From the NCBI GenBank assembly GCA_028870715.1, contig JAGWOZ010000013.1, positions 1 to 32,836 on the forward strand: a stretch of DNA of 32,836 bases, read 5' to 3'. The position numbers were made by a program, and so were the translations under genes. This document shows positions 19,865-21,727 of this stretch, piece by piece (the first letter of the stretch is position 1; the number at the start of each line of letters is the position of its first letter). Below the pieces are notes generated by a model. That model saw only the letters and a program-made list of their open reading frames with translations. It was not told where the DNA came from and did no database searches. The DNA comes from Betaproteobacteria bacterium. Lineage in GTDB: Bacteria > Pseudomonadota > Gammaproteobacteria > Burkholderiales > Burkholderiaceae_C.

Positions 19865-20656
19865 ATGGATGCACGAGCAACACCGAGTTCGGCTTTGTAC
19901 CTGTTCGAGAAGTTCGAGGTGGGGGTGGTTCACCTCGACGCGCGGCGCACCGTGTTGGCCATGAACGATTTCGCACGCAAGGTCCTTCCCGTGGGTGAAA
20001 AGCAGCCATTCGACAAGCTCGTGGCGTCGTTTCACCCGGAGCGATCCAAACCGAAAGTCAATTTCCTCCTGGACGAGGCGTCGCGATGCCCGGTGGCCAA
20101 TGCCACGCCCATGACCATGATCATCAACATTCCCGAGCAGGTCCTGCTGATCAAGGTGACCCGGCTGGCCGACCATCTCGGCACCACGACCGGATTTGTC
20201 CTGGTCTTCTATGACGTCACACAGATCGTGACCAACGACGACACGGCACCCGAGTCGCTGCAGGCCAACCGCCGCCTCTCACGCATTCCCATGGTGGCGA
20301 ACCACAAGGTGGCGTTTGTCGATACGGCCGATGTGCTGTGCCTGGAATCGCAGGCTCACTACACCCGTGTCCTCACCCGGGACGGCTTGCATTTCTGCAA
20401 CCTCAGCATCGGCGACCTGGCGGCCCGACTCGACCCGGCACAGTTCATGCGCGTGCACCGCTGTTTCATCGTCAACTTGCAGGCCGTGGCCGAACTCGGT
20501 CGCGAAGGCAGCAAGACGCATATCGTGCTGCGCGGCAAGCACCCCGGGCCACCCATTCCGGTGGCGCGCGGCGAGGTGGCGCAGCTGCGCGCCGCGCTCG
20601 GGCTCCTGAAGCGGGCCCGCGGCGCCGCACCCAGCCCCGCGCCGGTCCCGATCTAG
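19865..20656 (+). CDS. rcoM: PAS-LytTR transcriptional regulator, probable heme CO sensor RcoM
   Basis: N-terminal PAS-like domain (ALYLFEKFEVGVVHLDARRTVLAMNDFARKVLP...) and C-terminal LytTR domain (VAFVDTADVLCLESQAHYTRVLTRDG...FMRVHRCFIVNLQAVAEL); located immediately upstream of coxMSL; His57/Cys75/Met85 could match the heme ligands known in RcoM. Confidence 0.85.
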   Translation: MDARATPSSALYLFEKFEVGVVHLDARRTVLAMNDFARKVLPVGEKQPFDKLVASFHPERSKPKVNFLLDEASRCPVANATPMTMIINIPEQVLLIKVTRLADHLGTTTGFVLVFYDVTQIVTNDDTAPESLQANRRLSRIPMVANHKVAFVDTADVLCLESQAHYTRVLTRDGLHFCNLSIGDLAARLDPAQFMRVHRCFIVNLQAVAELGREGSKTHIVLRGKHPGPPIPVARGEVAQLRAALGLLKRARGAAPSPAPVPI

Positions 20657-20699
20657 GGACATTCCTGTATTGCGCTCGCGGCGAAACGCGTTCTCAGCA

Positions 20700-20813
20700 C
20701 TTCGTGCAGCGCGATGCGCATTCCGTGAAGCAAACACGGATTTGGTGCAAAGTGCGCCCTAATGGCGGGCCCTTACGCCGAAATGCAAAGTTCTCTAAAC
20801 TCTTTTCGTGAAT
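20700..20813 (+). promoter_or_regulatory. Helically phased direct repeats upstream of coxM (candidate RcoM/LytTR operator)
   Basis: CTTCGTGCAG (20700-20709), TTCCGTGAAG (20721-20730), TTTGGTGCAA (20741-20750), TTTCGTGAAT (20804-20813); GTG cores at 20704, 20725, 20745, 20808 (spacings 21, 20, 63). Confidence 0.5.
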
Positions 20814-20815
20814 AT

Positions 20816-20837
20816 GTCATTGACGGAAATCAATGAC
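20816..20837. promoter_or_regulatory. 22-bp palindrome GTCATTGA-CGGAAA-TCAATGAC containing an FNR-like box (TTGAC-GGAA-ATCAA)
   Basis: Perfect 8-bp arms read directly; 20820-20833 matches TTGAT-N4-ATCAA at 9 of 10 positions. Confidence 0.5.
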
Positions 20838-20863
20838 GCTAACGACAACTGCTGGAGACAAGC

Positions 20864-21727
20864 ATGATCCCACCGCGTTTCGAGTACCACGCGCCTCGCT
20901 CCCTCAGCGAAGCCGTGGCCCTGCTGGGCCAGCTCGGCTCGGAAGCCAAGCTGCTTGCAGGCGGCCACAGCCTGTTGCCCATGATGAAGCTGCGCTTTGC
21001 CGAGCCTGCGCACTTGATCGACATCAACCGCATCCCCGAGCTGCGCGGCATCCGCGAAGACGGGACCACAGTGGTGATCGGCGCCATGACGGTCGAGCAC
21101 GCCTTGATCACCTCGCCGGTCGTGCAGGCCAAAGTGCCGCTGCTGGCCGAAGCCGCCACCCAGATTGCCGATCCCCAGGTGCGCAACCGCGGCACGATCG
21201 GCGGCGATATCGCCCATGGCGACCCTGGCAACGACCACCCGGCCCTGTCCATTGCACTGGAAGCATCCTTCGTGCTTGAAGGCCCCGACGGGCGCCGCAC
21301 GGTGCCAGCCGACGGGTTCTTTCTCGGCCCCTACATGACGCAACTGCAGGAAAACGAAGTCCTGTGCGAAATCCGCGTGCCTGCCTTCGCACACGGCACG
21401 GGGTGGGCCTACGAGAAACTCAAGCGCAAAACCGGTGACTGGGCCACGGCCGGCTGCGCAGTGGTCATGCGCAAGAGCGGCGGCACGATCAGCCACGTGC
21501 GCATCGCTCTGACCAATGTGGCGCCCACCGCGCTGCGTGCCGAGGCCGCCGAGAGCGCGCTGCTGAACCAGCCGCTGAACGCCGCCACGCTGCAGGCGGC
21601 CGCCGATGCGGCCGCCGCCATCTGCGAGCCTGCCGAAGACCTGCGGGGCGACGTGGAATACAAAACCGCCATGGCCGGCCAGATGGTCAAGCGCGCCCTG
21701 TCCAAAGCCTGGTCCCGTTGTGCCTGA
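20864..21727 (+). CDS. coxM: Aerobic carbon monoxide dehydrogenase, medium (FAD) subunit
   Basis: MIPPRFEYHAPRSLSEAVALLGQLGSEAKLLAGGHSLLPMMKLRFAEPAHLIDI...ADPQVRNRGTIGGDIAHGDPGND: FAD-binding CoxM/XdhB motifs (AGGHSLLP, TIGG). Confidence 0.96.
   Translation: MIPPRFEYHAPRSLSEAVALLGQLGSEAKLLAGGHSLLPMMKLRFAEPAHLIDINRIPELRGIREDGTTVVIGAMTVEHALITSPVVQAKVPLLAEAATQIADPQVRNRGTIGGDIAHGDPGNDHPALSIALEASFVLEGPDGRRTVPADGFFLGPYMTQLQENEVLCEIRVPAFAHGTGWAYEKLKRKTGDWATAGCAVVMRKSGGTISHVRIALTNVAPTALRAEAAESALLNQPLNAATLQAAADAAAAICEPAEDLRGDVEYKTAMAGQMVKRALSKAWSRCA

Follow-up and report, generated by a model that had tools for sequence, protein, structure and literature searches.

Three direct repeats upstream of coxM (positions 20700-20750) form the predicted operator of the adjacent regulator RcoM, which would activate the coxMSL operon in the presence of carbon monoxide (CO). 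They lie in a 32,836-nucleotide stretch of DNA from Betaproteobacteria bacterium (GenBank assembly GCA_028870715.1, contig JAGWOZ010000013.1), referred to here as the window, which belongs to a draft genome of 3.63 Mb with a completeness of 86.5%. The triplet has a regular layout, is conserved among relatives, and stands at a fixed spacing to the −10 element, with an rcoM-type PAS-LytTR gene on one side and a form I coxMSL operon on the other. We give this reading, which leaves out a fourth repeat at 20804, a probability of about 90%. All features described are on the forward strand unless noted.

For comparison, 80 rcoM-cox loci were taken from a scan with one genome per species, and other searches contributed three more in addition to the window; the rcoM-coxM intergenic region was usable in 74 sequences, 59 of them nonredundant. 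The matrix learned from the repeat pairs reads TTTCGTGC(A); scores given below come from a matrix built on the relatives with the window left out. Repeat 1, CTTCGTGCAG (20700..20709), is kept in relatives and scores 12.9, as does repeat 3, TTTGGTGCAA (20741..20750), the register of which reads TTTGGTGCA in a clade of metagenome-assembled genomes (MAGs; loci L049-L062) and TTTGATGCC in Hydrogenophaga. Repeat 2, TTCCGTGAAG (20721..20730), occupies the register of the relatives' TTTCGTGCA, which is strong in most of them and degenerate here. Written in motif form, the layout is TTCGTGCA (20701-20708), 13 bp, TCCGTGAA (20722-20729), 12 bp, and TTGGTGCA (20742-20749); the first is an exact TTCNNGCA (6/6 positions), and the third agrees with that motif at 5/6. 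The triplet at 20700/20721/20741 is the top-scoring one in the intergenic region, with 28.7, a value that none of 4,000 dinucleotide shuffles attained (maximum, 16.3). It is also the only triplet with one mismatch in its own genome, where the next three have two. The pattern used for this genome scan was derived from the spacing in the window itself, and cleaner evidence therefore comes from the relatives and the shuffles.

The periodicity was measured with a motif-free lag test, which records for each lag the share of loci that contain two 10-base stretches agreeing at 9 or more positions. Among the 59 nonredundant loci, lag 21 stood out at 63%, followed by lag 20 (15%) and lag 22 (8%), with other lags at 0 to 5%. 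Repeat pairs are spaced by 21 bp in 50 of these loci and by 20 bp in the remaining 9. The degenerate repeat varies by clade, being the third in Limnohabitans, the first in the MAG clade, and the second in the window and L009. Triplets of the TTCNNGCA type are also found repeatedly in Burkholderia-type genomes, in the region that separates rcoM from a divergently oriented coxM, as in TTTCGCGCAA/GTTCACGCAG/ATTCGGGAAA at 20 to 21 bp, so that the repeats are kept in both arrangements of rcoM-cox promoters. RcoM has been characterized in Paraburkholderia, an organism of this divergent kind, to which the Burkholderia-type genomes examined appear from protein sequence to lie close. In L102 and other Burkholderia-type loci (L088-L117), two repeat sets are apparent in the divergent region and perhaps represent a duplicated promoter.

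The first-pass annotation had listed four decamers, with GTG cores at 20704, 20725, 20745, and 20808, and a TAAACT at 20796-20801, all of which are exactly where it placed them. It had read the decamers as sites for the LytTR domain of RcoM spaced by about two helical turns and had proposed a search for conservation at a period of about 21 bp in other rcoM-cox promoters. That search was run here and passed strongly, and for repeats 1 to 3 the conservation, the shuffles, and the genome scan all favor RcoM-type sites.

The earlier suggestion that TAAACT (20796..20801) is a −10 element also holds. A hexamer of the TAAACT/TACACT/AATACT type follows repeat 2 at 75 to 77 bp in 33 nonredundant loci, and in six more, from the MAG clade, the second repeat detected corresponds to repeat 3 of the window and is followed at 56 bp by TATAGT; the corresponding distances to TAAACT in the window are 75 bp from repeat 2 and 55 bp from repeat 3. 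This fixed distance across 39 nonredundant loci independently lends good support to the −10 assignment of TAAACT, and transcription is predicted to start near 20808. No sigma-70 −35/−10 pair and no −35 consensus were found in the window promoter, as would be expected because the promoter is predicted to be activator dependent. An inverted repeat near −35 in some relatives (CCYGAC-N6-GTCGG) was unsupported, with at least 5 of 6 pairs in 24% of loci and in 15% of shuffles.

This geometry bears on whether the triplet could instead be a repressor site relieved by CO. CoxC of Afipia, another LytTR regulator of cox genes, represses through a triplet until CO lifts the repression (PMC11347149), and the repeats could be read as an RcoM site of that kind. 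The CoxC triplet overlaps the −35 region, however, whereas repeat 3 here, the nearest, starts 55 bp before the −10 element, beyond the −35 region, in a promoter that lacks a −35 sequence, which is the layout of an activator. The regulator here, moreover, is a PAS-LytTR rather than an MHYT-LytTR protein, and we consider repression of this type very improbable.

The rcoM gene (19865..20656) was identified by Pfam and by alignment and encodes a predicted single-component regulator of 263 amino acids with an N-terminal PAS domain (PAS_10, residues 13-119, 1.9e-4) and a C-terminal LytTR domain (residues 148-245, 1.4e-17) in one polypeptide. We take His57, Cys75, and Met85 to be the heme-ligand positions, with Cys as the ligand of the ferric form. 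These residues are invariant across six aligned proteins and pair up in the alignment with the conserved His, Cys, and Met of Burkholderia-type RcoM, so by sequence the predicted His, Met, and Cys ligands are all present. Heme ligation by His and Met has been described for RcoM (PMC9670170). A sequence search of solved structures with the RcoM protein returned no match.

In another rival reading, the 21-bp repeats, which are assigned to RcoM by sequence, would serve a different regulator, with RcoM working at some other site. Against this, they occur together with rcoM in tandem and in divergent gene arrangements and fit the published RcoM motif (PMC11347149). By inspection, no second regulator or other neighbor encoded upstream of rcoM appears to be shared by the relatives inspected, the upstream open reading frames differing among the listed loci. 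A different owner of the repeats is thus extremely unlikely. Four observations nevertheless weigh against operation of the triplet by RcoM. Repeat 2 is weak in the window, agreeing with TTCNNGCA at 4/6 positions and scoring 2.8; the third repeat in many relatives is too degenerate for the matrix to score; some Burkholderia-type triplets get low scores with this matrix; and RcoM here shares only about 38% identity with the Burkholderia type.

At one mismatch, the triplet pattern finds coxM alone in its own genome, and a repeat pair with zero to one mismatch occurs nowhere but at the cox promoter in the genomes of five out of seven relatives. Among the same seven, one genome has two other places with one mismatch, and in L011 the cox pair lies beyond the two-mismatch limit. 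The near restriction of the pair to the cox promoter in other genomes suggests that RcoM here is a dedicated, single-promoter regulator. A search for a wider RcoM regulon in the window's own genome with a pair-only pattern was too loose to be of use (916/942, against 553/595 for the control). Two TTTCGTGC pairs with 21-bp spacing and one mismatch occur outside the cox promoter in the L067 genome (G889; C23:130307-130335 and C45:73070-73098), possibly as RcoM targets or by chance.

A regulatory role had also been proposed for the fourth repeat, TTTCGTGAAT (20804..20813; motif form TTCGTGAA at 20805-20812, 55 bp beyond TTGGTGCA), and this part of the first-pass annotation was not borne out. Under that proposal all four repeats would function, with the fourth acting at the transcription start in a role of its own, such as repression. 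With the relatives' matrix the copy reaches 9.3, above the value for repeat 2, but a site of equal score arises in 8% of shuffles on the forward strand and in 20% on either strand. It is retained in L008, the only other locus to have it, but the RcoM of L008 is 98% identical to that of the window and comes from nearly the same species. The copy is absent from L009 (RcoM 84% identical), from L010-L016, and from the Hydrogenophaga loci, and no site occurs at its position in the other 58 nonredundant relatives. Its distance of 3 × 21 bp from repeat 3 carries no weight, because the motif-free test gives no lag-63 signal across relatives. A functional fourth repeat is very unlikely; the copy is probably nonfunctional, a product of chance, and not part of the operator.

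By analogy with published RcoM work on DNA binding, CO dependence, and activation, repeats 1 to 3 would operate as follows. CO would bind the heme of the RcoM PAS domain, after which the LytTR domains would bind the three TTCNNGCA repeats on the same face of the helix, with repeat centers near −104, −83, and −62 relative to the start near 20808. RcoM would then recruit RNA polymerase to a promoter with a fair −10 element but lacking a −35, and coxMSL would be switched on. The coxM gene (20864..21727, identified by Pfam) is the first of the operon and is preceded by a predicted ribosome-binding site, GGAGAC (20854..20859), that is kept in relatives. CoxL has the form I CO dehydrogenase motif AYRCSFR and matches TIGR02416.

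Two further elements of this promoter were absent from the first-pass annotation. The first is an upstream block, GGACATTCCTGTATTGC (20657..20673), which starts 43 bp before the start of repeat 1. Its consensus, GGACWTTCCCTGATTGC, starts 43 to 44 bp before repeat 1 in most loci and 63 to 66 bp before the detected pair where that pair is repeats 2 and 3. The block is present within four mismatches at this offset in 40 of the 59 loci; the median over all offsets tried was 0. Its position is tied to the coxM promoter and not to the rcoM stop codon, the distance to which varies, and the block belongs to the same promoter architecture as the triplet. Across the genomes surveyed for it, all rcoM bearing, the sole copy at zero to one mismatch in the window's own genome and in seven others is the one at the coxM promoter, with other matches at about the control level. 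In Limnohabitans, a AGGGTATTCACTG element often stands before the block. Whether the block trades off against third-repeat strength was also examined (Spearman 0.25, p = 0.05), but kinship confounds the correlation and no trade-off is claimed.

The second element is an FNR-box-like dyad, TTGACGGAAATCAA (20820..20833, without assigned strand), centered at about +19 from the predicted start and matching TTGAT-N4-ATCAA at 9 of 10 arm positions. A perfect TTGAY-N4-RTCAA dyad is found in the coxM leader of 7 of the 59 loci and of L009, and in none of the shuffles. Within the window's clade, the arms are constant and the spacers vary; the dyad-bearing loci are not independent, because most are close relatives. 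The window's own genome contains 24 TTGAY-N4-RTCAA boxes, whereas the reversed control gives 3, and encodes two FNR-type proteins that have a C-x2-C-x5-C motif and a recognition helix reading E-T-V-S-R, and whose top NCBIfam match is Fnr, under its curated cutoff. These sequence matches suggest that FNR, bound just past the start, may add oxygen control by blocking coxM transcription when oxygen is absent. A different dyad, TTGTC-N3-GACAA, occupies the equivalent position downstream of the −10 element in L010, L012, L016, L031, L047, L048, and L075, at times overlapping the FNR-type dyad; at no more than one mismatch, it is found in 22% of loci and 0.1% of shuffles.

We tentatively propose, at somewhat less than even odds, that in Burkholderiales GGACWTTCCCTGATTGC, helically fixed 43 bp before repeat 1, is needed in the activation complex, through a second binding mode of RcoM or another partner, and that in the window's clade an FNR site covering the first transcribed bases would add oxygen control, limiting CO dehydrogenase to conditions with both CO and oxygen. 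The searchable literature, which excluded key original RcoM papers, yielded no mention of the upstream block or of an FNR oxygen gate, and both may be new elements. If so, they would help explain how CO oxidizers combine CO and oxygen signals, and the interest of this promoter beyond an operator of known kind rests on them. To our knowledge, no RcoM operator has been tested in Hydrogenophaga, Limnohabitans, or related Burkholderiales. A well-defined predicted operator is now placed in that clade, and dozens of natural promoters sharpen the consensus to TTTCGTGCA at 21 bp with a fixed distance to the −10 element.

Compared with known systems, the triplet is almost certainly, judging from its sequence features, an RcoM operator of an already described kind, ordinary but well supported. 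Like the RcoM-1 operator at coxM of Paraburkholderia xenovorans LB400 (Kerby and Roberts 2012 and Dent et al. 2022, as summarized in PMC11347149), it is a direct-repeat triplet of TTCNNGCA-like sites with 12 to 13 bp between them, located before the −35 region in a cox promoter and next to a cognate PAS-LytTR gene. Unlike in LB400, rcoM is in tandem with coxM, and the core is TTCGTGC here as opposed to TTCRCGC in the Burkholderia-type loci examined; the block 43 bp before repeat 1 and the FNR-type dyad after the start are additional to the LB400 operator. The CoxC operator at PcoxB of Afipia carboxidovorans likewise serves a cox LytTR regulator through three direct repeats set about two helical turns from one another (PMC11347149), but CoxC is a membrane MHYT protein that represses from −35-overlapping sites, in contrast to the upstream sites and PAS-type regulator found here. 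Canonical LytTR sites are direct repeats of about 9 bp separated by 10 to 13 bp (PMC11347149), a format that the triplet shares, with three repeats in place of their two.
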